The notes below the pieces were generated by a model. The model was not told the DNA's origin, made no database searches, and saw nothing but the letters and a program-made list of their open reading frames with translations. From Streptomyces acidicola (lineage in GTDB: Bacteria; Actinomycetota; Actinomycetes; Streptomycetales; Streptomycetaceae): 64,000 nucleotides of DNA. This document shows, piece by piece, positions 22,004 through 59,999 of the stretch. A program made the translations under genes and the position numbers. The DNA lies in NCBI RefSeq assembly GCF_009377235.1, contig NZ_VMNX01000010.1:1-64000 (forward strand), written 5' to 3'. Within the stretch, counting starts at the first letter, position 1; each line of letters opens with the position of its first letter.

Positions 22004-23638
22004 TCAGCGGTTGCGCAGTGCCGCTTGGGCCGCGTCGAGGCGCTGGGCTTCCTCGCGGGCGGAGTGGTCGCCCGAGACGTCGTCGGCCCATGCGAGCAGT
22101 CGGTGGACGTGTTCGTCGGCCGCGTCGGTGACGACGCGGGGACGGCCGAGGGCGACTTCGCCGCTGGTTCCGTCGATGGTGATGAGCGTGCCCTCCGGGA
22201 TGGTACGGACGCCGGCCGTCACGGAGCCGTCGTCGCGGTCGATGGTGAGGCCGGCGACGCCCACGACCGCGGGCTTTCCCATCGCCCGCGCGACGACCGC
22301 GGCATGGCTGGCCGGCCCGCCGCGCGCTGTGACGATTCCGGCGGCGGCGGCAAGACCGTGCACGTCGTTCGGGGAGGTCTCCGGGCGTACCAGGATGACC
22401 GGATCGGCCCGGGCCATGCGTACCGCGCCGTCCGCCGTGGTCGCGATCCTGCCGACGGCGACACCGGGGCAGGCACCGATTCCCCGGGCGAGGACGTCGG
22501 CCTCCTCGGCGGACGCGATGCGCGGTGTGCGGACGTGCCGGAGATGGAGCGGCGAGACCCTGAGCAGTGCTTCGTCCCGTCCGATGATCCGCTGGTCGAC
22601 GAGTTCGGTGACCACACGGACCGCGGCACCCCCCACGAACCGGCCGGGCCGGACCTGCAGGATCCACAGCTCGCCGGACTGGAACGTGAACTCGACGTAG
22701 CAGGCGTCACGGTAGTGCCCCTCGATCCGGCGCAAGGCGTCGAGCAGCCCCGTCCACACGTCCGGCTCCCGCTCGGCGAGTTCGCGCAGTGGCCGGGTCA
22801 TCGATTTCCCGGAGACGACTTCCTCTCCTTGGCGCCCGAACAGGACTTCGCCGAACGGGATGTTCTCACCGGTGTTGGGGTCGCGGCTGAACGCGACTCC
22901 GGTGCCGCTGTGGCCGTCGCGGTTGCCGAACACCATCCTCTGGACGATCACGGCTGTACCCAGGTCGTGCGGGATGTCGTTCAACTCGCGATAGGTTCGC
23001 GCGCGTGGTGCGTCCCACGACGAGAAGACAGCCTCGATCGCCTGCTCGAGCTGGCGGGTGACGTCGTCCGGGATCGGCTGACCGCTTCGTTCTCGAACGA
23101 GGTTCTCGACTGCCTCGATCGACTCGGTCAGGCGCGTTTCCTCGTCCTCGGTTTCTCGCCCGGGATGTCCTGCGTGGACGGTTCCCGTGCCGTCCATGTC
23201 CGCGTTCGTGATCGCGGAGGCGAAGCTCGTCAGAAAACGCAGCCGCGAGTTCAGCGCGAACGGCCGGTCGCCCGTCTCTGCGGCCAGGCCCACGGTGGCT
23301 TCGGTCGTGAGACCGAGGTTGAGGATCGTGTTCATCATGCCGGGCATGGACACACTGGCCCCGGAGCGAACAGACACCGCCAGCGGGTTGTGCGGTCCCC
23401 CGAAGGCACGCCGGGTGGAGCGTTCGAGGTCGGCCATGGCCGTCGCGAGCTCGTCGTCGAGCCCCTCGGGAAGGCGCCCGTCCCGGAGGAAGGCACGGCA
23501 TGCCTCTGTGGTGATGATGAACCCGGTCGGCACCGGCAGGCCGAGACGGTGCAGTAGGACAAGGCCGAGTGCCTTGCCGCCCAGTGTCTCCGCCGTCTCC
23601 TCGGCCTGGGCGGAGATCGTGCGAATCCACCTCCTCAT
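22004..23638 (-). CDS. PPDK-like phosphotransferase lacking the PEP/pyruvate-binding barrel
   Basis: A 544-residue protein. The N-terminal ATP-grasp domain of pyruvate phosphate dikinases is present: LGGKALGLVLLHRLGLPVP, SVRSGASVSMPGMMNTILN and TGVAFSRDPNTGE. A phosphohistidine (PEP-utiliser) domain follows with TARGGPASHAAVVARAMGKP. The C-terminal ~350-residue PEP/pyruvate TIM barrel of true PPDK (~870-900 residues) is absent. The ATP-grasp domain should phosphorylate the swivelling His, but the final acceptor is unknown. The start at 23638 overlaps the upstream gene by ATGA. The group is reminiscent of antibiotic phosphotransferases that reuse these domains, but nothing here proves that. 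Confidence 0.88.
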   Translation of the reverse strand: MRRWIRTISAQAEETAETLGGKALGLVLLHRLGLPVPTGFIITTEACRAFLRDGRLPEGLDDELATAMADLERSTRRAFGGPHNPLAVSVRSGASVSMPGMMNTILNLGLTTEATVGLAAETGDRPFALNSRLRFLTSFASAITNADMDGTGTVHAGHPGRETEDEETRLTESIEAVENLVRERSGQPIPDDVTRQLEQAIEAVFSSWDAPRARTYRELNDIPHDLGTAVIVQRMVFGNRDGHSGTGVAFSRDPNTGENIPFGEVLFGRQGEEVVSGKSMTRPLRELAEREPDVWTGLLDALRRIEGHYRDACYVEFTFQSGELWILQVRPGRFVGGAAVRVVTELVDQRIIGRDEALLRVSPLHLRHVRTPRIASAEEADVLARGIGACPGVAVGRIATTADGAVRMARADPVILVRPETSPNDVHGLAAAAGIVTARGGPASHAAVVARAMGKPAVVGVAGLTIDRDDGSVTAGVRTIPEGTLITIDGTSGEVALGRPRVVTDAADEHVHRLLAWADDVSGDHSAREEAQRLDAAQAALRNR

Positions 23639-44513: not shown

Positions 44514-45105
44514 TCACCGGGCGGACCATAGGAAGACGCCTGCGATGTGGAGTCCCGCCAGGTAGACGGTCGCGGTCTTCTGGTAGCGGGTCGCGATGCC
44601 TCGCCACTGCTTCAGGCGGTTGATGCACCGTTCGACGGTGTTGCGCTGCTTGTAGATCTCACGATCGAAGGCCGGCGGCCTGCCGCCCCGACTGCCCCGT
44701 CGGAGGCGGTGGCCGCGCTGGTCCGCCGGGATCGGAATCACTGTCCGGATGCCGCGCTTGCGCCGATGGTCGCGGATCGCGCGGGACGAGTAGGCCCTGT
44801 CCGCCAGGACCACGTCCGGTCTGGTGCGCGGACGGCCCCGTTGCCGGGGAACGCGCTGGCGGGTCATGACGGCGGTGAAGGCGGGTGCGTCACCCGCTTT
44901 CCCGGCGGTAAGGACGAACGCCAGGGGCCGGCAGCGGGCATAGGCCGCGAGGTGGATCTTGGTGGTCAGCCCGCCGCCGGACGTGCCGATGGCGTGGTCG
45001 GCGGGTTCGCCGGCCGGGGCCCCTTTTTGCGGGCTCCGGCCGCGTGCTGGTGAGCCCGCACGATGGAGGAGTCCACCGACACGGCCCAGGTGACCCCGTG
45101 ACAAT
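44514..45105 (-). pseudogene. IS5-family transposase, frameshifted and 5'-truncated
   Basis: The minus strand encodes WAVSVDSSIVRAHQHAAGA (first catalytic Asp), then after a frame change GGGLTTKIHLAAYARCRPLA, DVVLADRAYSSRAIRDHRRK (second Asp) and NTVERCINRLKQWRGIATRY (catalytic Glu). The shift comes from one missing G in a G-run near 45020. The N-terminal ~100 residues are lost at 45105, where plus-strand integrase sequence begins. Confidence 0.82.
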
Positions 45106-45690
45106 GTTCTCGCCCAACTCGATGCCCTGCACGGCTGGCAGCGGCAGTACACGCTGATCGCGCTGCGGTCATTATTCGGCAAGGCGAAGAAGAACGGCAC
45201 CATCTTCAAGAACCCGACCAGCCGCATCCGTGTCGGCCAACGTGAGTACGGCATCCTCCTGCCCCTGGAGCCTGAGCACATCGCGAACTCGGTCACCATC
45301 GTCACCACGCCTGCCGACCACCTGGTCCTTGCTCTCGCCTCAGTGCATGCCACCCGGTCCCGCGCGATCCGCCGTCTCCAGCTCGACGACCTCGACATCG
45401 GCAACCGGAAGCTCACGATCGACGGCCGTGTCCGGCGCTTGGACGACCTCACCCTGCACGTCGCCCGCGAGTGGTTGGACTTTCGCCGCCCGCTCTGGCC
45501 CGACACCGCCAATCCTCACCTGCTGATCAACAAGTTCACCGCGCTGGGCACCGGCCCGGTCAGTCGGGTTTCCCTCACCGCACCGCTTCGCGGTCAGGCC
45601 GCCACACTGGAACGGCGAGCCGACACGCGCACTCCGCCCGCGCTCTCCTGGAACGGCCCATGGCGGCCCGGTAGCCTTGCCTGGACACCG
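45106..45690 (+). pseudogene. Tyrosine recombinase (integrase) internal fragment
   Basis: The plus-strand frame reads LDALHGWQRQYTLIALRSLF, GKAKKNGTIFKNPTSRIRVG, then LVLALASVHATRSRAIRRLQ and LDDLTLHVAREWLDFRRPLW, NPHLLINKFTALGTGPVS. This is the core of a Tn554/TnpB-like actinobacterial tyrosine recombinase, including the catalytic Arg region. N- and C-terminal parts (with the HxxR and Tyr boxes) are missing; homology fades at about 45615. It is fused directly to the IS5 remnant. Confidence 0.7.
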
Positions 45691-49728: not shown

Positions 49729-50352
49729 ATGACCCAAGCCAGGCGACCCCGGGGACGACCGCCGCTGTCCTCGCGCGAGAAGGTCGAGGCGGTGGCGATC
49801 GAACTGTTCCTGGAACACGGCTACTCCGGGACCAGCCTCGCGACGATCATCGAGGCCTGCGGCGTCAGCAAGACGACGTTCTTCCGCTACTTCGCGTCGA
49901 AGTCGGAGATCATCTGGTACGCCTTCGACACACACACGCGCCACCTGCGCCGACTGCTGGCGGAGGCGGACTCGTCCGAGCCGGCCATGACAGTGGTCCG
50001 GACATGCGTCGTGGACGCCTTGCGCGCTTCCATCGACGAGCGTGGAATCTGGATGAAACGCTTCATCATTCTCGACGGTTCCCCCGAGCTCAGGCCCGAG
50101 GGGTCGACCCAGTGGACCAGTTGGGCCGATGCGGTCAGCGAATACGTGGCCGGGCGTCTGGGCGTGAGCGAGCGCGGCCTGGTGCCGGCGAGCATCGGTG
50201 GCGCTGTCCAGGCCGCTTACCTCGCCACCCTCCGCGGCTGGCAGACCTCCTCGAAGCCTGTCTCCGAACTGCTGCTCGAACTTGAGGCGGATCTCGCGCC
50301 GCTGTGCGACGTGCTCCAGGGGTGGCTGGACCGGCAGGGGCCACGTCGGTGA
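49729..50352 (+). CDS. TetR/AcrR-family regulator
   Basis: A 207-residue TetR protein. The HTH reads AIELFLEHGYSGTSLATIIE and ACGVSKTTFFRYFASKSEII. The ligand domain contains WMKRFIILDGSPELRPEGST, typical of the MftR-like acyl-CoA-responsive TetR group. The AT-rich 126-bp divergent region (ACAATAATGGTACTTGG) separates it from the SDR gene and likely holds operators for both. It probably represses the ADH/SDR unit until a CoA-type inducer binds. Confidence 0.88.
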   Translation: MTQARRPRGRPPLSSREKVEAVAIELFLEHGYSGTSLATIIEACGVSKTTFFRYFASKSEIIWYAFDTHTRHLRRLLAEADSSEPAMTVVRTCVVDALRASIDERGIWMKRFIILDGSPELRPEGSTQWTSWADAVSEYVAGRLGVSERGLVPASIGGAVQAAYLATLRGWQTSSKPVSELLLELEADLAPLCDVLQGWLDRQGPRR

Positions 50353-50379: not shown

Positions 50380-51156
50380 TCAGCGGACCGAGATCAGACC
50401 GCCGTCCACCGGGATGAGCTGGCCGGTGATGAAATGGGACGCGTCGCCGGCGAGGAAGACCAGGACCGGCGCCAGGTCCTTCGCCGGGTCGCCGAACCTG
50501 CCTCCGAGCGGGATCTGCTCCGCCGTCTCCTTGTCGTGCGCTGCAAGCGCCTCGGGCGAGAGCGCTTCGCGGAACTTCTCGTACATGGGGGTGACCACAT
50601 ACGGAAGGACGGCGTTGACCCGGATTCCAGCGGGGCCCCAGTCGCGGGCGACGCTGCGGGTCCAGGTGTGTACCGCGGCCTTGGTGGCGCCGTAGACCGC
50701 GTTGTTCCGCTCCGCGGTCAGGCCCGATTCCGAGCCGAAGTTGATGATCGCGCCCGAGCCGGTCTCCTTCATCAGGGAGAAGGCCGCCGCGTTGGTGTGA
50801 ACGGTGCCGAAGAAGTTGATGTGGAAGATGGTCTCCAGTAGGTCCTGCGGAACGTCATGGGCGGGGGCGTGGCGCTGGATGCCCGCCACATTGACGAGGA
50901 CGTCGAGCCCGCCCATGCGGGCGGACGCCTGGGCGAAGACGGAGTTCACCTCCTCGCGGTCGCCGACGTCGGCGCGTGAGAAGGTGACCGATCCGGGACC
51001 GGCCTTGGCGGCTTCTTCGGCCACCTTGAGGCCGGTTTCCTCGTTGATGTCGAGGGACGTCACGGTGGCGCCCTCGGACGCGTAGGCGCGGACCACGGCT
51101 TCCCCGATGCCCTGTGCACCGCCGGTGACGATGATGCGTTTGCCTGCGAGTTGCAT
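50380..51156 (-). CDS. SDR-family oxidoreductase
   Basis: A 258-residue classical [33 protein letters not shown] (Asp after strand 2, NAD-type), [15 protein letters not shown], catalytic Ser in INFGSESGL and YxxxK in [15 protein letters not shown]. The cofactor-side motif NVAG has Val in place of the common Asn-Asn. The ATG at 51154-51156 has GAGGAGACGGAAGAG upstream. It is on the minus strand downstream of the LLM genes, so it is probably the last gene of that arm of the catabolic cluster. Confidence 0.9.
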
Positions 51157-51362: not shown

Positions 51363-52484
51363 TCAGGCCGTGGCTGCCGTACCGACGGGGCGGACGCAGG
51401 GCACGACCTCCTTGGCGATCCGGTGCATGGACTCGATCCACGGCGTCGGATCGTCGATGTAGTCCTGGGTGTTCAGGACGATCTCGCCGAAGCCGCCGAT
51501 CCGCTCGTTCATCTCCTCGATCTTGCGGATGACCGTTTCGGGAGACCCGCACAGCCACACGTGCTCGGCGATGAAGTCCATGTCGACGTCCGCCACGTCT
51601 ATGCCGGTGCCCGAGTCGTCGATGTACCCCTGGAGAATCCCGAACCGCTGGTAGATCGGCACGAGGTATTTCTCCCAGCAGTGGCCGAGGCCGCCGTTGA
51701 TGGCACGCTTCCTGGCCTCCTTGTCGGTGTCCGCGACAAGGACGTCCCGGCAGATGCGGAACCGCTCGCGGTCCAGCGGGTGGCCGTTTGCCGCCGCGCC
51801 CTCGGCGTACGTGTCCCAGTGCGAGCGGGCCACGTCGACGCCGCCGAAGAACGAGATGGGCGAGAAGCCGTTCTCCCCGGCATAGCGCATCGACGACGAG
51901 TTGTACGACAGCGCCGTCACCGCGATCTCCAGGGCCTCCGGTCCGCCCCACGGGGAGAAGTCCGGCATGACGTGCTCCTGGTGGCCGTCCTCGGCCGAGG
52001 GCTCCTCCTCGGGGAAGCCGCCGGTGAAGAACCGGCCCTCATAGTGGAACGGCTCGCGCTTCCAGACCTTGCGCATGATCTCCAACGCCTCGTCCCGGCG
52101 GGGACGGGCCTCGGACAGGTCGGCCGCCTGTCCCCGGATGATGGCGTCGCGCGGATAGGCTCCGGGACCTATCCCGAGGAAGTAACGGCCCTTCAGGACC
52201 CGTGAGAGCCAGCCGACCTGGATGGCCAGGGAGCCGGGCTGGTGCAGCCCCAGGAGATGCGCCATCGGGGCAAAGCGAATCCGTTCGGTCTCCCGGGCAC
52301 AGGCGCCGATGACGATTTCCGGGTTCGGCACGCTCTCCCAGCCCTGAGTGGCGTGCTCACCTATCATGAAGTCGGTGAAGCCGGCTTGGTCGGCCTCCCG
52401 GGCCATGAGAACCGAGTAGTCGAATACCTCGCGGGGCGTGCGCTCGGGGCGCATATACGGAACGTTGAAGATGCCGCTCTTCAT
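51363..52484 (-). CDS. LLM-class flavin-dependent oxidoreductase
   Basis: A 373-residue bacterial-luciferase-like TIM barrel. It starts MKSGIFNVPYMRPERTPREV and carries FTDFMIGEHATQGWESVPNP, RIRFAPMAHLLGLHQPGSLA and VLKGRYFLGIGPGAYPRD, the standard (F/Y)GxGxG-like flavin-phosphate region of LLM oxidoreductases. A group of this type uses FMNH2 supplied by a reductase to monooxygenate ketones, alkanes or terpenoids. AAAGGAGA lies 9 nt before the ATG. It follows the second LLM gene in the same transcript; the flavin reductase is at the head of the unit. Confidence 0.88.
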   Translation of the reverse strand: MKSGIFNVPYMRPERTPREVFDYSVLMAREADQAGFTDFMIGEHATQGWESVPNPEIVIGACARETERIRFAPMAHLLGLHQPGSLAIQVGWLSRVLKGRYFLGIGPGAYPRDAIIRGQAADLSEARPRRDEALEIMRKVWKREPFHYEGRFFTGGFPEEEPSAEDGHQEHVMPDFSPWGGPEALEIAVTALSYNSSSMRYAGENGFSPISFFGGVDVARSHWDTYAEGAAANGHPLDRERFRICRDVLVADTDKEARKRAINGGLGHCWEKYLVPIYQRFGILQGYIDDSGTGIDVADVDMDFIAEHVWLCGSPETVIRKIEEMNERIGGFGEIVLNTQDYIDDPTPWIESMHRIAKEVVPCVRPVGTAATA

Positions 52485-52606: not shown

Positions 52607-53761
52607 CTAGACCAGCGTTCCCTCACTGTCCTTGCTCGAGAATCGAGGGGCGACTTCCTCGGCGAACCGGATCAGTTCGTCGTTGTTGCGGCCCGGTTCC
52701 AGGTGTCCCTGGCCGAACATGAGGAAGCACTCGTTGAATCCCAGGCGGTCGTGGGCCTGCTCGATCTGCCGGGAGATGTCATCCGCGGTGCCGATGAGCA
52801 CATTGGGGAACTGCTGACCGTGGGGGATGAACCACTTGTCCCAGAACCACCGGTGCTCGGCCTCCAGTTGGGCGGCCTGCTCCTTGTCATCGGTCAGGAT
52901 GAGAAAGCCGCCCCAGGCCCCGATTTCCTCGCGGGGCACGTCGCGCCCGGCCTTCTTCGCCGTCTCGGAATAACGCTTCCACAGCGCCTCGCAGAAGTCG
53001 AGATCTGTGGCGAAAACAACTTGCTTTCCGCCCTCGCGGGCCCACATGTCAACGGTTCGCATGCTGTAGGCGAAGGCACCGTAGACCTTTGGGTGCGGGT
53101 TCTGGAAGGGGCGCGGGGCGATTCCGATTTCCTGGACGATGCCGTTCTCGTCCATGCCTCTGCCGAATTCCTTGTACCCGGGGTGGCCGGCCGAGCCGCC
53201 CTCCGGGGGGAACTGCCAGTACTTGCCCTTGTGGCTGAAGAGTTCGTTCTCCCACGCCTTCTTCAGTACCTGGACGGACTCCTCGAAGATCTCCCGGTTG
53301 GTGGCATCCTGATCGTCGCGGGCCTTGGCGTGCTGGACGTTGGTCGCGCCGATGCCGCGGATCGCGGCGTAGGAGTCCACCCAGCGCGCGTGGTAGCCGC
53401 GGGTGAAGCCGACGATGAGCCGCCCCTGGAGGATGTGGTCGAGCGTCGCGATCTCCTCGGCCACCCGGACCGGGTTGTGCGTGGGCAGGACGTATCCCAG
53501 GATCCCGGCACTCATGCGCTTGGCGTGCGACCCGACGAAGAGCCCCCACATACCAGGGTGGTTGGTGATCTCGAAGCCTTCGATCTGCAGGTGATGCTCG
53601 GGCGAGCAGTAGCTGGCGTAGCCCAGTTCGTCGGCGAGCCGGACATAGCCCTTCACCTCTTCGAGGTACCGCTGGTACAGGTCAGGGCGCTGCCCCGCCA
53701 TGCCCTGCTCGAGTTCGTGGCGCCGACCGATCACGCCGGTCTGCATGAGGTGGAATTTCAC
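52607..53761 (-). CDS. LLM-class flavin-dependent oxidoreductase (second)
   Basis: A 384-residue LLM protein distinct from the one at 51363. It starts VKFHLMQTGVIGRRHELEQG and contains YASYCSPEHHLQIEGFEITN, SAGILGYVLPTHNPVRVAEE and LQGRLIVGFTRGYHARWVD. The GTG at 53759-53761 is preferred because AAGGAGAC lies just upstream. Paired LLM enzymes sometimes act as the two subunits of one luciferase-like monooxygenase, or on successive substrates. Located between the flavin reductase and the first LLM gene on the minus strand, it should receive reduced FMN from that reductase. Confidence 0.88.
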   Translation of the reverse strand: MKFHLMQTGVIGRRHELEQGMAGQRPDLYQRYLEEVKGYVRLADELGYASYCSPEHHLQIEGFEITNHPGMWGLFVGSHAKRMSAGILGYVLPTHNPVRVAEEIATLDHILQGRLIVGFTRGYHARWVDSYAAIRGIGATNVQHAKARDDQDATNREIFEESVQVLKKAWENELFSHKGKYWQFPPEGGSAGHPGYKEFGRGMDENGIVQEIGIAPRPFQNPHPKVYGAFAYSMRTVDMWAREGGKQVVFATDLDFCEALWKRYSETAKKAGRDVPREEIGAWGGFLILTDDKEQAAQLEAEHRWFWDKWFIPHGQQFPNVLIGTADDISRQIEQAHDRLGFNECFLMFGQGHLEPGRNNDELIRFAEEVAPRFSSKDSEGTLV

Positions 53762-53811: not shown

Positions 53812-54306
53812 TCACACGGCGACGAGCTGCCGGAAGCGGCTGCCGTGGAAGACCAGCGGCGCACGCTCGGGCTCGGCGCGCAGGGCGTGGATGGCCAGCA
53901 GGACGATCGCGTGGTCCCCGGCCGGAAACTCCTGGTGGACGGTGCAGTCGAACCAGGCCACCGCGCCGTGGACGAACACCGCACCGTCGGTGTTGCTGCT
54001 CCACTCGACCCGCGCGAACCGGTCCCCGGTCTTCTGGGCGAGGGTGCGGCAGGTCTCGTTCTGGTCCTGGGCGAGCATGCTGACGCCGAGTCGGCGCAGT
54101 CCGCGCAGTCGCGGCCAGGTGGTCGAGGTGTTCTGCACGCACACCGCCGCCAGGCTGGGCTCCAGGGAGACCGAGGTGAACGAACTCGCCGCGATACCGA
54201 CCGGCTTGTCACCCTCCATCGCGCAGATGGCCGTGACACCGCTGGGGAAGCACCCGTAAGCGCGCTTCAGCAGCTCCGAGTTTCCGGTGTTGGGTTCCAG
54301 ATCCAC
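53812..54306 (-). CDS. Flavin reductase family protein
   Basis: About 164 residues of the HpaC/short-chain flavin reductase family: RAYGCFPSGVTAICAMEGD, GIAASSFTSVSLEPSLAAVC (the conserved SFxSVSLxPP flavin-contact motif), and VHGAVAWFDCTVHQEFPAGD, HAIVLLAIHAL. These NAD(P)H:flavin oxidoreductases supply FMNH2 to two-component monooxygenases, here the two LLM enzymes directly downstream. The GTG at 54304-54306 is preferred (GAGGGG upstream, family alignments), though an upstream in-frame start to 54366 exists. It is the first gene after the minus-facing promoter element. Confidence 0.85.
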   Translation of the reverse strand: MDLEPNTGNSELLKRAYGCFPSGVTAICAMEGDKPVGIAASSFTSVSLEPSLAAVCVQNTSTTWPRLRGLRRLGVSMLAQDQNETCRTLAQKTGDRFARVEWSSNTDGAVFVHGAVAWFDCTVHQEFPAGDHAIVLLAIHALRAEPERAPLVFHGSRFRQLVAV

Positions 54307-54447
54307 CCTGTGCCCCTCTTCTGTGAGGTGGGTACTCCGCAGGCCCTTCGCCACCCGCCGGCCCACGTGGAGGGTTCCTGGCGTTCCGCGGGATTCGAGT
54401 GAAGGAGTCGGTGGCTTCAGGCAACGCCGACTGTGTGCGGTATCGCC

Positions 54448-54477
54448 AAGCTATCTACACCAACGTAAACCGTCAAC
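54448..54477 (-). promoter_or_regulatory. Minus-facing copy of duplicated promoter/operator
   Basis: Read on the minus strand: TTGACG (-35, 54471-54476), a 17-bp spacer and TAGCTT (-10, 54448-54453). The 28-bp segment 54450-54477 matches the reverse complement of 54547-54574 at 23 of 28 positions. It would drive the flavin reductase / LLM / SDR arm. Confidence 0.65.
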
Positions 54478-54546
54478 ACTATCGTAAATTGATCTTGAAG
54501 TTGCTCTACCGCAGCTCACAGGCTTCTCCAGCAGTGCGCCGAAAGC

Positions 54547-54576
54547 GTTGACCGTTTACATGGACGTAGATAGCAT
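54547..54576 (+). promoter_or_regulatory. Plus-facing copy of duplicated promoter/operator
   Basis: TTGACC (-35, 54548-54553), a 17-bp spacer and TAGCAT (-10, 54571-54576), with shared blocks GTTGAC, GTTTAC and GTAGATAGC inverted relative to the other copy. It would drive the SnoaL / crotonase arm starting at 54735. Confidence 0.65.
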
Positions 54577-54734
54577 CCACGGCACGCCGTTCCGGCAAGG
54601 CGGCGGCAGAGTGACCGAGGACGAGCCGGGACCCGTCAGGCGGCTCCTGGTCCTCCCTCACAACTCCCTCACTCCGACACTCCGACCCGACCCGCCCGTG
54701 CGAGAGCAACCGGGCGATCTGGAGGATGACGCAG

Positions 54735-55214
54735 ATGACGCAACAGGACGAGGCGACGGCCGCGCTGGCCGATCTGGTGGAGACGGAGAAGATCCACCGG
54801 CTGCTGTTCGACTACGCCTACCACCTCGACATGAACCATCCGGACGAGATCGCGGGCCTGTTCACCGAGGACTGCTACGTCTCCTACGGACCGGGCTTCG
54901 GTGCCGAGGGGCGTGCTGCGTACCGCGAAACCCTGGGCGGGATCGGCAGCTTCTTCGCCGCGACCAGCCACCATGTGTCGAACATCGTGGTCGACTTCGG
55001 CCCGGACCGGACCACCGCGACCGTGCGGTCGGTGCTCCACGCCTGGCACAGGTACACCAGGGACCGCCCGGACGGGCACTTCTTCGGCCAGTACCACGAC
55101 GAGTTGGTCCGTACGGAGAAGGGCTGGCGCTTCGCCAGGCGCGAGCTGCGGGCGTCCGGCGTGGTGGACTTCCACGTAAAGAAGCAGATCCCGATCGGCC
55201 GGGCGGTCTCGTGA
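54735..55214 (+). CDS. SnoaL-like / ketosteroid-isomerase-fold protein
   Basis: A 159-residue SnoaL_4-type protein: LVETEKIHRLLFDYAYHLDM, NHPDEIAGLFTEDCYVSYGP, AATSHHVSNIVVDFGPDRTT and GWRFARRELRASGVVDFHV. The HLDMNHPDEIAGLFTEDC segment is typical of the group linked to aromatic and steroid catabolism. The ATG at 54735 is spaced 9 nt from GGAGG; an earlier ATG at 54726 abuts it and is less likely. It leads the plus-strand arm, coupled by a 4-nt overlap to the crotonase gene. Confidence 0.87.
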   Translation: MTQQDEATAALADLVETEKIHRLLFDYAYHLDMNHPDEIAGLFTEDCYVSYGPGFGAEGRAAYRETLGGIGSFFAATSHHVSNIVVDFGPDRTTATVRSVLHAWHRYTRDRPDGHFFGQYHDELVRTEKGWRFARRELRASGVVDFHVKKQIPIGRAVS

Positions 55215-56206
55215 CGGCCTCGTCGGAGCCGGGCGGCACGGGGCCTCCCGCGTCCGGCGCGGGCGGCGAGGACGGCGCGGGCGGCGCGGGCGGCGCGGGC
55301 GGCGCGGGCGGCGCGGGCGGCGCGGGCGGCGCGGGCGGCGCGGGCGGCGCGGGCGGTGCGGGCGGTGTGCCGGGCTACCGCAACATCCGGGTGGAGCACC
55401 GCGGCCCGGTGAGCTGGATCATTCTCGACCGGCCCGAGAAGGCCAACGCTCTGTCGAACGAGATGCTGGACGAGTTCTCCGACGCCCTGGACAGACTGGC
55501 CCGCACCGGTGGCCCGGTCCTAGCCATCCGCGGCGCGGGCAGGGGGTTCTGCTCCGGATACGACATCGAGCAGGTCGGCAGGACCGTGGCCGCGCCGGAC
55601 CCGGTCGCCGACCGCGAACGGCTGGCGCACAACGTCAACCGCTACCTGGCGATCTGGGACCACCCGAAGCCGGTGATCGCCGCGGTGCACGGCTACTGCC
55701 TGGCCGGCGCGAGCCAGCTGTGCGTGTTCACCGACATCACCGTCGTCACCGACGACGCCAGCATCGGCGAGCCCGCGCTCCCGCTGGGCGGCGGCTACAT
55801 CGCCCCGCTGTGGGCACCGCTCGTCGGCCCCAAACGCGCCAAGGAACTTGCCTTCGTCCCCGGCAACACGATCGACGGAAAGACGGCGGTCACCTGGGGA
55901 TGGGCCAACCACTCGGTGCCCGAGGAGGAGTTGATCCCGACCGTGGAGACGATGGCCGCCCGTATCGCGCGCATCCCCTCGGACGTGCTGCGCGTCAAGA
56001 AGCTCTCGGTCAACCGGGCCATGGAGGCCATGGGCGTACGCACCGCCGCGGCCGGCGTCCCCGAGATGGACGCCCTGCTGCACCTGTCCCCGTCGGTGGC
56101 CCAGATGCGCGCCTGGATCGGCGAGGTCGGACTCAAGGAGGCCATCGCCTCCTTCCGGCGCGACCCCCAGGCCACACCCGAACCCATCGGAAAGGACGCA
56201 CCGTGA
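55211..56206 (+). CDS. Enoyl-CoA hydratase/isomerase (crotonase) with AGG-repeat N-terminus
   Basis: A 331-residue crotonase-superfamily enzyme. A ~50-residue low-complexity leader, largely (Ala-Gly-Gly)10, precedes the fold. The crotonase core reads PVSWIILDRPEKANALSNEM, LAIRGAGRGFCSGYDIEQVG (oxyanion-hole region) and VIAAVHGYCLAGASQLCVFT (second oxyanion glycine pair). The usual catalytic acidic loop is here SIGEPALPLGGGYIAPLWAP. It may hydrate, isomerise or hydrolytically open a cyclic beta-diketone, as some crotonases do. The GTG at 55211 overlaps the SnoaL stop (GTGA), and its own stop overlaps the next gene. Confidence 0.88.
   Translation: MTASSEPGGTGPPASGAGGEDGAGGAGGAGGAGGAGGAGGAGGAGGAGGAGGVPGYRNIRVEHRGPVSWIILDRPEKANALSNEMLDEFSDALDRLARTGGPVLAIRGAGRGFCSGYDIEQVGRTVAAPDPVADRERLAHNVNRYLAIWDHPKPVIAAVHGYCLAGASQLCVFTDITVVTDDASIGEPALPLGGGYIAPLWAPLVGPKRAKELAFVPGNTIDGKTAVTWGWANHSVPEEELIPTVETMAARIARIPSDVLRVKKLSVNRAMEAMGVRTAAAGVPEMDALLHLSPSVAQMRAWIGEVGLKEAIASFRRDPQATPEPIGKDAP
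55277..55366. repeat. 10 x 9-bp tandem repeat (GCGGGCGGC)
   Basis: Ten copies of GCGGGCGG(C/T), the last two ending in T, lie in frame and encode (Ala-Gly-Gly)10 in the crotonase leader. As at 18515-18640, the unit is 9 bp, so length variation keeps the reading frame. Confidence 0.95.
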
Positions 56207-56979
56207 GTTCCGGAGTCGAGTTCGTGAAGGACGGCCATGTCGCGCGGGTGGTCCTGGACCGTCCCAAGGCGCTCAACGCGATCACCCCGCAGATGGACGA
56301 CGCGCTGTTGGACGCCTGGACGGAGATCAACAACGATCCTGACATCTGGGTCGCGGTCCTGTCCGCCACCGGCGAGAAGGCGTTCTGCGCCGGCGGGGAC
56401 GTCAGCGGGGCCGCCGAGGGCCCGAGCCGGCGCATGGCCCTCGGCGGGGGCCTCACCGGCGTCGGCGGTCCGCTGCTGACGCTGCGCAAGCCGCTGGTCG
56501 CGGCCGTGCAGGGCTACGTCATCGGCGGTGGGTTCGAACTGGCCATGTGCGCGGACGTCATCGTCGCGGCCGACACGGCCCAGTTCGGCATGCCGGAGAC
56601 CAAGGTAGGCATCATCGGCGAAGCCGGCATCATGCACCGGGCCATCCGCCAGCTTCCCCACCACATCGCCCTGGCCATGATCCTCACCGGCGAGCGCATC
56701 CCGGCCGCGGCGGCCGAACGCTACGGTCTGGTCAACGAGGTCGTCGGCTACCCGGACCTCGCGGAAGCCGCCGATCGCTGGGCCCAGAAGATCACGGCCG
56801 CCTCGCCGCTGGCAGTGCAGGCAGCGAAGGAAGCGGTCCTCTCCCGGGTGGGCTGGCCGCTGGAAGTCGCCCTGGCGACCCGCTACGAACCCATCGAGGC
56901 CTACGCCTCCACCAAGGACCGCCTGGAAGGCCGTGCCGCCTTCGCCGAGCGGCGCGCTCCCCGGTGGCAGGGCCGCTGA
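56203..56979 (+). CDS. Enoyl-CoA hydratase/isomerase family protein
   Basis: A 258-residue crotonase: HVARVVLDRPKALNAITPQM, VAVLSATGEKAFCAGGDVSG, VAAVQGYVIGGGFELAMCAD and GMPETKVGIIGEAGIMHRAI. Both oxyanion-hole segments (CAGGD, GGG) are canonical, and the Glu of PETKVGI sits at the position of one catalytic acid in true enoyl-CoA hydratases. The GTG at 56203 overlaps the upstream stop, so the two crotonases are co-translated and probably act in sequence on one CoA or ketone pathway. Standard ECH length. Confidence 0.9.
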   Translation: MSSGVEFVKDGHVARVVLDRPKALNAITPQMDDALLDAWTEINNDPDIWVAVLSATGEKAFCAGGDVSGAAEGPSRRMALGGGLTGVGGPLLTLRKPLVAAVQGYVIGGGFELAMCADVIVAADTAQFGMPETKVGIIGEAGIMHRAIRQLPHHIALAMILTGERIPAAAAERYGLVNEVVGYPDLAEAADRWAQKITAASPLAVQAAKEAVLSRVGWPLEVALATRYEPIEAYASTKDRLEGRAAFAERRAPRWQGR

Positions 56980-57012
56980 CCGTCATGGAACCGCTCACGG
57001 AAAGGTGTGGAG

Positions 57013-57519
57013 ATGAGTGATCTGGATTCCCGCATCCGCAGGCTGGAGGACCGTGCCGCCATCGAGGACCTGGTGATCCGCTACTTCCTCGCGGCCGACG
57101 ACAACGACCTGGAGACCCTCGGATCGACGTTCGCGCCGGATGCCGAATTCCTCATGGGCGGCGGTTTCTCGGGCGGCTCGGACCGCGAGTCGATCGTGCG
57201 CTTCATCAAGGAGGACCGGGCCACCATGGGGGTCACGGTCCACACCCAGAACTTCACGCTCCTCACCTTCCACGACGACGACCACGCGGACGGTGTCGTC
57301 GGCGCCCACCTGGAGCTGGCACGCGGCGGGACCACGGTCTACGGCGCGGTGCGCTACCTGGACGACTATGTGCGTGCGGACGCGGGGTGGCAGATCAAGC
57401 GCCGCGAGCTGGCCGTCCTCCATGTCGGGCCGTGGGAGGACGTCGCCACGTCGCTCACCGCCGAACTGCGTTCCCGCTGGCCGGGGCAGAAGCCGGTGTC
57501 GGCCGATCTCCCCCGGTAG
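57013..57519 (+). CDS. SnoaL-like NTF2-fold protein
   Basis: A 168-residue SnoaL_4-type protein: SRIRRLEDRAAIEDLVIRYF, LAADDNDLETLGSTFAPDAE, FLMGGGFSGGSDRESIVRFI and WQIKRRELAVLHVGPWEDV. It resembles the SnoaL-like protein at 54735 in fold but not closely in sequence. Such proteins may isomerise or bind intermediates. The ATG at 57013 is spaced 7 nt from AAAGG; a GTG at 57007 is less likely. Same strand and direction as the crotonases (gap 33 bp). Confidence 0.85.
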   Translation: MSDLDSRIRRLEDRAAIEDLVIRYFLAADDNDLETLGSTFAPDAEFLMGGGFSGGSDRESIVRFIKEDRATMGVTVHTQNFTLLTFHDDDHADGVVGAHLELARGGTTVYGAVRYLDDYVRADAGWQIKRRELAVLHVGPWEDVATSLTAELRSRWPGQKPVSADLPR

Positions 57520-57531
57520 CCGGCCGGAAGG

Positions 57532-58227
57532 TCACGGCTCGCCGCGCCGCAGACCGTCGAAGAAGACGGCCGAGAAGGTCTCGACGGTCTGCTCCAGCGT
57601 ATATTTCCGGTCGCCCGGCTTGAACCAGCGGTGGGTCCAGTTCACCATTCCGAAGAGTGCTTTCACCACCAAGGGCACGGCCAGGTCCTCCCGGAAAGTC
57701 CCCTCCCGCACCCCCGAGGTGATGATGTCCGTGACAATCGATTCAAATCGGCGGGTCTTCCGCGCCATTTCACGTGCCCACGGCGTCGACTGGAATGCAA
57801 CCTTCCCCATGTCTTCCTGGATGTAGACATACACATAGGGGTAGTTCGCCACATACGAAGTAATCTGCAACTCGATGAGGAGGCGCAGCTTCCGATGGGC
57901 ATCCATATCCATGTCCGCGATCCGGACGGCCTCGGCAAGATTCTCGTCCAGCACCTTTTTCGCGGTGGCCTGGAAGACCTCCTGGAACAGCTCTTCCTTG
58001 CCTGAGAAGTAGTAGTAGATGGCCGCACGGTCGGTGCCGAAACGGGCGGCGATGTCACTGAGCGTCGCAGCCTCGTAACCTTTTTCCTTGAACACGTCAC
58101 CGGCGATTTGCAGCAATTCTCCACGTTTCGCCAAGTATGCGGCGCCGCCTTCTACTTGAGCGCTCTGCCGACGCTTACTCAGACCGCTGTGCGACGTTTT
58201 CGGGGTGCGTTTGGCGGGCGGACTCAT
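57532..58227 (-). CDS. TetR-family regulator (KstR2/FadR-like subgroup)
   Basis: A 231-residue TetR protein with an ~40-residue basic, flexible leader (PPAKRTPKTSHSGLSKRRQS), then the HTH IAGDVFKEKGYEAATLSDIA, ARFGTDRAAIYYYFSGKEEL. The ligand domain ends NWTHRWFKPGDRKYTLEQTV, typical of TetR proteins that sense acyl-CoAs, including steroid regulators of the KstR2 type. Its position inside the catabolic cluster, divergent from the acyl-CoA synthetase (gap 113 bp), makes it the best candidate to bind the duplicated operator at 54450-54574. Start at 58225-58227. Confidence 0.87.
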   Translation of the reverse strand: MSPPAKRTPKTSHSGLSKRRQSAQVEGGAAYLAKRGELLQIAGDVFKEKGYEAATLSDIAARFGTDRAAIYYYFSGKEELFQEVFQATAKKVLDENLAEAVRIADMDMDAHRKLRLLIELQITSYVANYPYVYVYIQEDMGKVAFQSTPWAREMARKTRRFESIVTDIITSGVREGTFREDLAVPLVVKALFGMVNWTHRWFKPGDRKYTLEQTVETFSAVFFDGLRRGEP

Positions 58228-58340: not shown

Positions 58341-59999
58341 ATGACGGAGAATGTTCGGTGGACCGAGGTGTTGTGCGTCGGCGACCTTCTGGTGAGGGCT
58401 GCCCATCGGCACCCCGGGCGCGACGCGCTGGTGCTTCCCGGTGTGCGGTACACCTACGCCGAGTTGTACGAGCGTGCCGAGCGGACCGCACGAGGACTGG
58501 TCGCGCTCGGTATCCGCCCCGGACAGCATGTGGGGCTACTCGCGTCGAATGGCGTCGAGTTCGCCGAAGGGCTGTTCGCCATCTCGCTGATCGGTGGGGT
58601 GGTCGTTCCGCTCAACGCCCGCCACAAGGCCACCGAACTCGCTTACATCATCGACAACAGCGATCTCGTCGCAGTGCTGACCACCGCCGGCGCCGACCAG
58701 TACGTCGACTTCGCGGCGGTACTCAAGGAAGCCCTGCCGTCACTGGCCACCGCGAAGGTCCCGACCCGGCTGAGCCTGCCCGAGGCTCGCGGGCTGCGCG
58801 CGGCGGTGCTGCTCTGCGGTGCGGACCGGGCTGGATTCCTCGACCGCGCCGCGTTCGACCGACTCGCCGCGGACGTCGATCCGCGAAGGATTCTCGAACT
58901 GCGGCGCCGCGTCCGCGTCCGCGATATCGCGGCGCTTCTCTACACATCCGGCACGACCGCGAACCCCAAGGGCTGTCTGCTGTCCCACGAGGCCATGACC
59001 CGCGGCCCGGTGGAACGGGCCCGTTTCCGGCTCGGCACCGGTGACCACGATGTCACCTGGGCCGCCGGACCGCTTTTCCATATCGCCGCCCTGTCGCCTT
59101 TCCTCGGGTCGATCGGCGACGGCGGGACATTTCTCACCGATGTCCACTACGAACCCGGCAGGGCCCGGGATCTGCTGGTTCGCGAGGGCGCCACCGTCGC
59201 CTTTCCCTGGTTTCCGGCAATCATTCAGCCGCTGCTCGACCATCCCGCATTCGACCCGACGGAGCTCCGGGCATTGCGATCGATGTTCCTGATCGGCCCC
59301 AGCGTCCTTCTGGAACGCGTGCAGTCCGCCCTGCCCGAGGCCGAACTCATCGCGGCGTGCGGCATGACCGAGACGGCCGGCATCTATGCGCTCAGCGACC
59401 GGACCGACTCGATCGAAACGCGCGCCACGGCACAGGGCAGACCCTACTCCGGAATGGAGATCCGCATTATCGACCTGGAGACCGGAGAGGGCGCCGAAGT
59501 CGGCGTGATCGGCGAGCTACTGGTCCGTGGCTTCTGCGTCACCGACGGGTATTACCACGATCCGGAGGCGACTGCGGCCGCCTTCGACGAAGGCCGCTGG
59601 CTGCACACCGGCGACCTCTACAGCTGGACTCCCCAGGGCCAGGTGGCATTCCACGGCCGGCTCAAGGACATGCTGAAAGTCGGCGGCGAGAACGTCGCCG
59701 CCCTCGAAATCGAGTCCTTCCTCGCCCGGCACCCGGCGGTGCGGTGCGTCGAAGTGGTCGGCGCCCCCGATCCCCGGCTCGACGAAGTGCCGGTGGCCTT
59801 CGTCGAGGTCCGCGACGGGTACACGGTCACCCCGGAGGAACTGATGGAGTTCTGCCGGGGCCGTATCGCCCGTTTCAAGATTCCACGCGCTGTCCGCTTC
59901 ATCGAACCCGGCGGCTGGCCGATGTCCACCACGAAGATCGACAAGCGGGCTCTGCGCCGCATGCTCAACGAGACGGAATCGGAGCTGACACACCCGTGA
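58341..59999 (+). CDS. Acyl-CoA synthetase / AMP-dependent ligase
   Basis: A 552-residue adenylate-forming enzyme. Conserved motifs: P-loop IAALLYTSGTTANPKGCLLS, PLFHIAALSPFLG, ELIAACGMTETAGIYALSD, WLHTGDLYSW and GRLKDMLKVGGENVAALEIE, and catalytic Lys in MSTTKIDKRAL. It activates a carboxylic acid as an acyl-AMP and then acyl-CoA. It starts near the divergent TetR and its stop overlaps the next gene (GTGA). In context it probably loads the acid product of the monooxygenase/ring-opening steps onto CoA. Confidence 0.93.
   Translation: MTENVRWTEVLCVGDLLVRAAHRHPGRDALVLPGVRYTYAELYERAERTARGLVALGIRPGQHVGLLASNGVEFAEGLFAISLIGGVVVPLNARHKATELAYIIDNSDLVAVLTTAGADQYVDFAAVLKEALPSLATAKVPTRLSLPEARGLRAAVLLCGADRAGFLDRAAFDRLAADVDPRRILELRRRVRVRDIAALLYTSGTTANPKGCLLSHEAMTRGPVERARFRLGTGDHDVTWAAGPLFHIAALSPFLGSIGDGGTFLTDVHYEPGRARDLLVREGATVAFPWFPAIIQPLLDHPAFDPTELRALRSMFLIGPSVLLERVQSALPEAELIAACGMTETAGIYALSDRTDSIETRATAQGRPYSGMEIRIIDLETGEGAEVGVIGELLVRGFCVTDGYYHDPEATAAAFDEGRWLHTGDLYSWTPQGQVAFHGRLKDMLKVGGENVAALEIESFLARHPAVRCVEVVGAPDPRLDEVPVAFVEVRDGYTVTPEELMEFCRGRIARFKIPRAVRFIEPGGWPMSTTKIDKRALRRMLNETESELTHP

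Follow-up and report, generated by a model that had tools for sequence, protein, structure and literature searches.

A candidate TetR-type operator repeated at two divergent promoters of a catabolic gene cluster in Streptomyces acidicola

Two divergent sigma-70-like promoters, about 100 bp apart, stand in a catabolic gene cluster of Streptomyces acidicola, and each carries a candidate TetR-type operator between its -35 and -10 boxes. Our study of the window (the whole stretch of 64,000 nucleotides analysed here) and of related loci makes it very probable that dimers of one regulator of the cluster, TetR2, repress both promoters from these 18-bp operators, and suggests as the likeliest inducer an acyl-CoA of the pathway, which would release TetR2 so that both operons come on together. 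The sites and promoter boxes are conserved, and they co-occur and co-vary with TetR2. A changed form of the operator accompanies more distant relatives of the regulator.

Results

Inverted repeat, promoters and operator dyad

The sequence-only reading of the window had claimed that segments 54450-54477 and 54547-54574 match in inverted orientation at 23 of 28 positions, and exactly that count was recovered. Nowhere else in the 64-kb window is there an inverted match of at least 23/28 whose loop measures 5-200 bases; first-order Markov randomisation of the window (10 copies) and randomisation of the local 600 bp (1000 copies) produced no such pair. Ungapped extension produced arms of 35 nt (54450-54484 and 54540-54574) with 80% complementarity, the perfect ends of the repeat being GCTATCTAC/GTAGATAGC. 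A 27-mer consensus derived from both copies, searched with up to 3 mismatches, matched at 2 places, the copies themselves (expected, 0.00).

The outward-facing TTGAC(G/C)-17-TAGC(T/A)T boxes described in the same reading are also present, with their hexamers and 17-nt spacing, in both arms. The leftward promoter, TTGACG-17-TAGCTT (54448-54476, minus strand; -35 at 54476-54471, -10 at 54453-54448), faces the flavin reductase/monooxygenase arm, and the rightward promoter, TTGACC-17-TAGCAT (54548-54576, plus strand; -35 at 54548-54553, -10 at 54571-54576), faces the SnoaL/enoyl-CoA hydratase arm. A consensus promoter scan called the right promoter with 9/12 matches (mean of shuffles, 0.0); the left promoter, with 8/12 matches and 3/6 in its -10, fell under the threshold of the scan and was not called.

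The functional core of each arm is an 18-bp dyad, RTYTAC-N6-GTARAY, placed between a TTG... -35 and a TANNNT -10 with 17-bp spacing on both sides. The left operator, GTTTACGTTGGTGTAGAT (54453-54470, minus strand), runs through the spacer into the -10 box, the first base of which is also the operator's last, and the right operator, GTTTACATGGACGTAGAT (54554-54571, plus strand), lies likewise between -35 and -10. The proposal of a duplicated element thus survives in altered form: the repeat is real, but the repeated unit is the dyad within the promoter spacer and not the entire 28-mer. A tandem second site on the left, ATTTACGATAGTGTTGAC (54472-54489, minus strand), had been overlooked. It stands 19 bp from the first left site, its GTTGAC half overlaps the -35 box, and it matches RTYWACN6GTTGAY exactly.

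Gene content of the cluster

The left arm begins with a flavin reductase gene (53812-54309, minus strand; Flavin_Reduct domain), whose GTG start was judged from its ribosome-binding site. It is followed on the same strand by two luciferase-like monooxygenases, LLM2 (52607-53761; start judged from the ORF, with searches using 52607-53695) and LLM1 (51363-52484; domain match), and by the dehydrogenase SDR2 (50380-51156), whose start and operon membership are predicted. The right arm, on the plus strand, opens with a SnoaL-like protein (54735-55214), for which ATG 54735 suits the GGAGG at 54721 better than ATG 54726, and continues with two members of the enoyl-CoA hydratase family, ECH1 (55211-56206) and ECH2 (56203-56979), both with judged starts, and with SnoaL-like protein 2 (57007-57519; domain match). 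Beyond it lie TetR2 (57532-58227, minus strand), a TetR_N plus TetR_C_24 regulator whose start, ATG 58227, was judged from the ORF and relatives, and an acyl-CoA ligase (58341-59999, plus strand) divergent from it across a gap without an operator. A second TetR gene, TetR1 (49729-50352, plus strand), has an MftR-type C-terminal domain and is divergent from SDR1. Which genes are co-transcribed was predicted from orientation and short gaps. The 'CoA arm' of the earlier reading needs narrowing in this respect, since the right promoter precedes a SnoaL-ECH-ECH-SnoaL series, and the CoA ligase at 58341 begins at a separate, operator-free gap.

Bac_luciferase and Flavin_Reduct domains were found in the cluster, and the nearest solved relative of LLM2 is 3,6-diketocamphane 1,6-monooxygenase (E 1.1e-15). 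Nearest structures and models suggest that LLM2 is a Baeyer-Villiger-type luciferase-like monooxygenase and the ligase a fatty-acid-type CoA ligase; among the matches listed, none reached the curated NCBIfam cut-offs for these enzymes. The N-terminal part of ECH1 (about 55240-55370, plus strand) carries a long Gly-Gly-Ala repeat (GAGGAGGAGG...) that is unusual for an enoyl-CoA hydratase.

The catabolic cluster looks like an acquisition of this genome, since the best TetR2 match by E-value in 296 other genomes of the window's own family is only 33% identical. A DDE transposase gene (44514-45509, minus strand; DDE_Tnp_1, E 5.7e-15) lies about 2 kb beyond the left end of the catabolic genes, a position that fits such an acquisition.

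Conservation among actinobacterial relatives

LLM2 was used as a query and returned 68 loci. Its identity was 82-92% in Saccharopolyspora, Pseudonocardia and one Amycolatopsis, 66% in a second Amycolatopsis (L111), and mostly 64-74% in 54 proteobacterial loci; five further matches were weak (23-31%). The gap ahead of the flavin reductase is present, and could be tested, in seven actinobacterial loci (L061, L062, L063, L065, L066, L067 and L107); L064 ends before the gap and L111 has a different layout, and both were left out.

All seven testable relatives retain both sites, left and right, in the same inverted layout. When these loci were aligned with the window, GTTTAC and GTAGATA were invariant across all 16 sites and the six bases between them varied, a pattern that identifies the 18-bp dyad as the repeated unit. 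A scan of spacers 0-14 between GTTTAC and GTAGAT in the same eight loci found 17 occurrences at spacer 6 and 0 elsewhere. The promoter boxes were equally persistent: TTGNNN-17-TANNNT was present at 16/16 promoters of the window and its relatives, and the left promoter has a full TTGACA (TTGACA-17-TANNNT) in each of the seven relatives. The distance between arms was freer, with offsets of 95, 96, 96, 104, 107, 110, 400 and 400 bp. The tandem left site was kept as TTAC-N6-GTTGAC in the window and all seven relatives, and no second tandem site was found on the right side in any of them. Over the 40-bp tandem left stretch the commonest base occurred on average in 6.15 of 7 rows, compared with 3.59 in the flanks; the rows were the window and six relatives, L062 being omitted as a near copy of L063. 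The seven relatives amount to fewer than seven independent tests, given that the TTTAC loci form one clade and include the near copies L062/L063 and L066/L067.

Some relatives have extra sites ahead of other cluster genes. The Amycolatopsis saalfeldensis cluster (L107) contains a second inverted TTTAC-type pair (2126-2239), with sites at 2126 and 2219, about 93 bp apart. Three Pseudonocardia clusters carry tandem operator-like pairs 19 bp apart (L066, 1773/1792; L067, 1786/1805; L065, 2263/2282); these stand about 65-90 nt before a dehydrogenase gene, where there is perhaps a third regulated promoter. A palindrome-like partial match to the operator inside the TetR2 gene (57809-57830), seen also in L061 and more weakly in L062, L063 and L065, was dismissed as coding sequence; it encodes a conserved peptide and is probably a coincidence.

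A changed operator in other loci

The TTTAC-type dyad occurred 0 times in the 907,712 bases of 55 loci (the 54 proteobacterial loci and L111), and another half-site was therefore sought. A dyad of the same size and geometry, TCAAC-N6-GTTGA, was present in all 17 of the gaps before LLM2 that were examined among the 54 proteobacterial loci. Its strict form, RTCAACN6GTTGAY, occurred 172 times in 52 of the 54 loci, as 126 distinct 18-mers; only 2 of the 172 sites fell inside marked cluster genes, and 0 were seen in one Markov copy per locus. Spacing was again sharply defined: in a scan of spacers 0-14 for TCAAC/GTTGA in these 54 loci, spacer 6 accounted for 215 occurrences and no other spacer for more than 6.

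Two sets of sequences were kept out of the definition of the motif, loci L132-L135 and plasmid pSH1. A search of 394 genomes of the window's class with TetR2 (E <=1e-50) returned the own genome and three others, in which the regulator is 42-44% identical and in each case beside an LLM2 relative. The four held-out loci L132-L135 come from those three genomes, and the core TCAAC-N6-GTTGA precedes LLM2 in 4/4, with L133 and L135 being near copies. The strict form was found in just one of the four, the gap sites of the other three beginning with T. Plasmid pSH1 of Sphingobium xenophagum has 5 strict sites; the gap between ligase and LLM2 contains one of them, and another stands 68 nt ahead of the plasmid's TetR gene. 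Since two sites of the plasmid are letter-for-letter identical to sites of L093, it is no independent case. Its plasmid-borne relative of the cluster (L129, 9687-36232) has genes for flavin supply (ribB, riboflavin kinase, dodecin), a CoA transferase and a thiolase nearby, and TCAAC sites occur also at 23065, 31872 and 36266.

The two Amycolatopsis loci illustrate how regulator and operator vary. L107 has a TetR2 82% identical to that of the window and TTTAC dyads; in L111 TetR2 is 40% identical, and alongside three strict TCAAC dyads there is a single mixed one (GTCTAC-N6-GTTGAC) but none of the TTTAC type. Loci L132-L135, from the window's own class, likewise have TCAAC dyads and no TTTAC dyad. 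Together, L111 and L132-L135 support the view that the type of operator tracks the clade of the regulator and not the phylum. Among 36 aligned regulators, residue 63 of TetR2 is Ala in all 8 of the TTTAC type and Ser or Thr in the other 28/28; the regulators of the held-out L132-L135 have Ser. This residue is within the recognition helix (61-67) of the TetR2 model. The TTTAC group forms one clade in both trees (100/99), so the association represents one evolutionary change and not many. In the TetR2 tree L111 sits on a long branch and its place is unsure.

TetR2 as the probable regulator

The suggestion that a common regulator, probably the TetR at 57532, acts on both arms has gained in strength, since both sites, their layout and the promoter boxes occur in 7/7 relatives always together with a TetR2 ortholog (73-82% identity), and since the change of half-site tracks the clade of this regulator. 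Full-length relatives of TetR2, 40-49% identical, occur in 27 of the 54 proteobacterial loci, several of which are incomplete. No TetR1 relative of at least 150 aa was found in the 68 loci, the 5 short matches covering the helix-turn-helix.

Both domains of TetR2 score above the gathering threshold (TetR_N, E 1.3e-15; TetR_C_24, E 9.7e-16), and its structure model, of moderate confidence (pLDDT 80, pTM 0.71), matches TetR structures. The nearest entries by sequence and fold are 3dcf, KstR2 and PfmR, with FadR and AibR lower down. Entry titles place stearoyl-CoA with FadR and isovaleryl-CoA with AibR; the fold matches also include DarR, which binds c-di-AMP, and 3dcf, whose title gives no ligand. 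Five NCBIfam families match TetR2 at 1e-10, none reaching its own cut-off and none named KstR2; the best match is FadR, with 65.3 bits against a cut-off of 200.

An operator at the regulator's own gene is common in the TetR family and is not obligatory. With up to 3 mismatches allowed, no operator was found in the TetR2/ligase gap, either in the window or in the 4 relatives that share this gap, and the region upstream of TetR2 in L061-L063 also had none; the window and all seven actinobacterial relatives thus lack one. Of 35 loci in which TetR2 is full-length, 9, all proteobacterial, have a site no more than 250 nt upstream of the gene, and 26 have none. The usual autoregulation is therefore mostly not seen; the nine upstream sites link the operator with TetR2 in some loci if not in all.

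Reach of the regulon

A motif search of the rest of the 10.25-Mb genome, which the sequence-only reading had put forward as a way to define the regulon, pointed to these two promoters and turned up no wider one. The pattern GTTTACN6GTAGATAGC, with up to 3 mismatches, gave 31 genome matches versus 28 for the reversed pattern, the exact matches being the two known sites only. RTYTACN6GTARAY occurs at 3 places in the genome versus 1 for the control, and two of these are the window operators. The third, at L130:173, does not point to a wider regulon: it lies in open frames, and the two of these that were tested lack any Pfam domain. Nor does this site precede the closest named gene, which encodes a desaturase (L130:717-1841, minus strand). 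RTYWACN6GTTGAY occurs at 2 places, the tandem site of the window and one inside an EF-Tu frame, and the control gave an equal count. As the TTTAC-type dyad occurs in the genome only here and at one further place, a wide regulon is unlikely, and the visible regulon appears to consist of the two divergent operons.

Discussion

According to the mechanism that we favor, a TetR2 dimer would sit on each operator when substrate is lacking and block RNA polymerase at both promoters. Once the pathway starts, an acyl-CoA thioester of the pathway would bind TetR2 and release it from the DNA, so that transcription of both operons, flavin reductase/monooxygenase and SnoaL/enoyl-CoA hydratase, would begin together. 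Binding and repression by TetR2 are suggested by the placement and co-variation of the sites, and a CoA thioester by analogy: an acyl-CoA of the pathway is the likeliest guess for the inducer because TetR2 resembles the acyl-CoA-sensing repressors KstR2, FadR and AibR, with DarR (c-di-AMP) also among the fold matches.

An obligatory DNA loop or cooperative complex, formed by TetR2 dimers on both arms and needed for repression, is compatible with TetR2 as the regulator. Two inverted sites about 100 bp apart, with a tandem second site on the left, would suit such an arrangement, but arm offsets that run from 95 to 400 bp keep no fixed helical phase, which argues against an obligatory loop, and each operator is by itself placed to block its own promoter. 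We consider the loop improbable, though it is the strongest of the alternatives. About as improbable, and by our estimate slightly more so, is that the sites bind another regulator, either the TetR at 49729 or an unlinked host regulator. TetR1 is indeed in the same cluster and divergent from SDR1, and TetR2 has no autoregulatory site in the window and seven relatives. However, the 68 loci, including the 7 with the sites, yielded no full-length TetR1 relative; the exact sites are nearly confined to the cluster in their own genome, unlike those of a host regulon; and the operator variant goes with the TetR2 clade.

That TetR2 binds the sites as an activator or dual regulator seems quite unlikely, in that a protein bound between -35 and -10 is expected to block polymerase, and KstR, KstR2 and EdcR are TetR-like repressors (PMC8700777). 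Least credible of all is the notion that the inverted repeat is a structural or mobile-element remnant (terminal inverted repeats, a small element or a cruciform) and not a control site. The perfect ends of the repeat and the DDE transposase gene at 44514-45509 speak for it, but the same two sites stand between orthologous genes in seven relatives with variable inner sequence and distance, constraint falls on the half-sites and promoter boxes and not on the N6, and the matches in the genome include no second copy of the pair. Repression of both promoters by TetR2 is thus the reading that we retain.

Control of divergent or paired operons by a single TetR repressor, through repeated operators, is a known arrangement. 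KstR2 is a TetR-family regulator close to TetR2 by sequence (E 2.7e-17) and fold and controls a catabolic pathway, the lower pathway of cholesterol, but the two are about 27% identical and their gene sets differ. The operator of KstR2, ANCAAGNNCTTGNT, differs from the window dyad in half-site and spacing. FadR (Bacillus) and AibR are fold neighbors on which a CoA-thioester inducer can be modelled; they differ from the TetR2 system in operators and genes. The type II Baeyer-Villiger monooxygenases offer a distant likeness, LLM2 being nearest to a diketocamphane monooxygenase and a flavin reductase standing alongside.

The effector of KstR2 is HIP-CoA, and EdcR of Caenibius tardaugens is a TetR repressor of two catabolic operons, OpA and OpB, for whose promoters a shared palindrome overlapping the -10 has been proposed (PMC8700777). 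EdcR is the closest published arrangement that we found, with one TetR repressor and the same palindrome at two catabolic promoters. It is unlike TetR2 in its TetR_C_11 domain, its operator (TnnCnnTACnAnTnGTAnnGnnA), its induction by estrone and estradiol and its estrogen genes (PMC8700777). The progesterone pdc cluster, described as small, comprises a BVMO, an LLM and two regulators, and pairs its LLM with a TetR gene (PMC12239570). The likeness of pdc to the cluster studied here, an LLM plus a TetR gene in both, is one of gene content. The pair of TetR2 and its operator is apparently new: among the open-licence papers listed, judged by title and start of abstract, none describes the regulator, its operator or the cluster.

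The distribution of the two operator forms also invites an evolutionary scenario, which we advance tentatively and with somewhat more doubt than conviction. One regulator-operator system may have travelled with the cluster across Actinomycetota and Pseudomonadota with its 18-bp N6 geometry kept, and on the branch that includes the window the half-site and the recognition helix may have changed jointly, the former from TCAAC to TYTAC; the GTTGAC half in the left -35 would be the older form. The direction of the change, from TCAAC to TYTAC, is one that we infer.

The regulator and operator proposed here are open to test and belong to a widespread catabolic cluster of LLM monooxygenases, SnoaL proteins, enoyl-CoA hydratases and a CoA ligase, and the changed form of the site recurs in another bacterial phylum. 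With an operator of this specificity, further cluster promoters could be mapped across some 50 related loci, and the ligand of TetR2 would point to the substrate of the cluster. The switch between TCAAC and TTTAC is a compact case for the joint change of a repressor and its operator and, if the scenario is true, would constitute a natural record of operator rewiring at fixed geometry.
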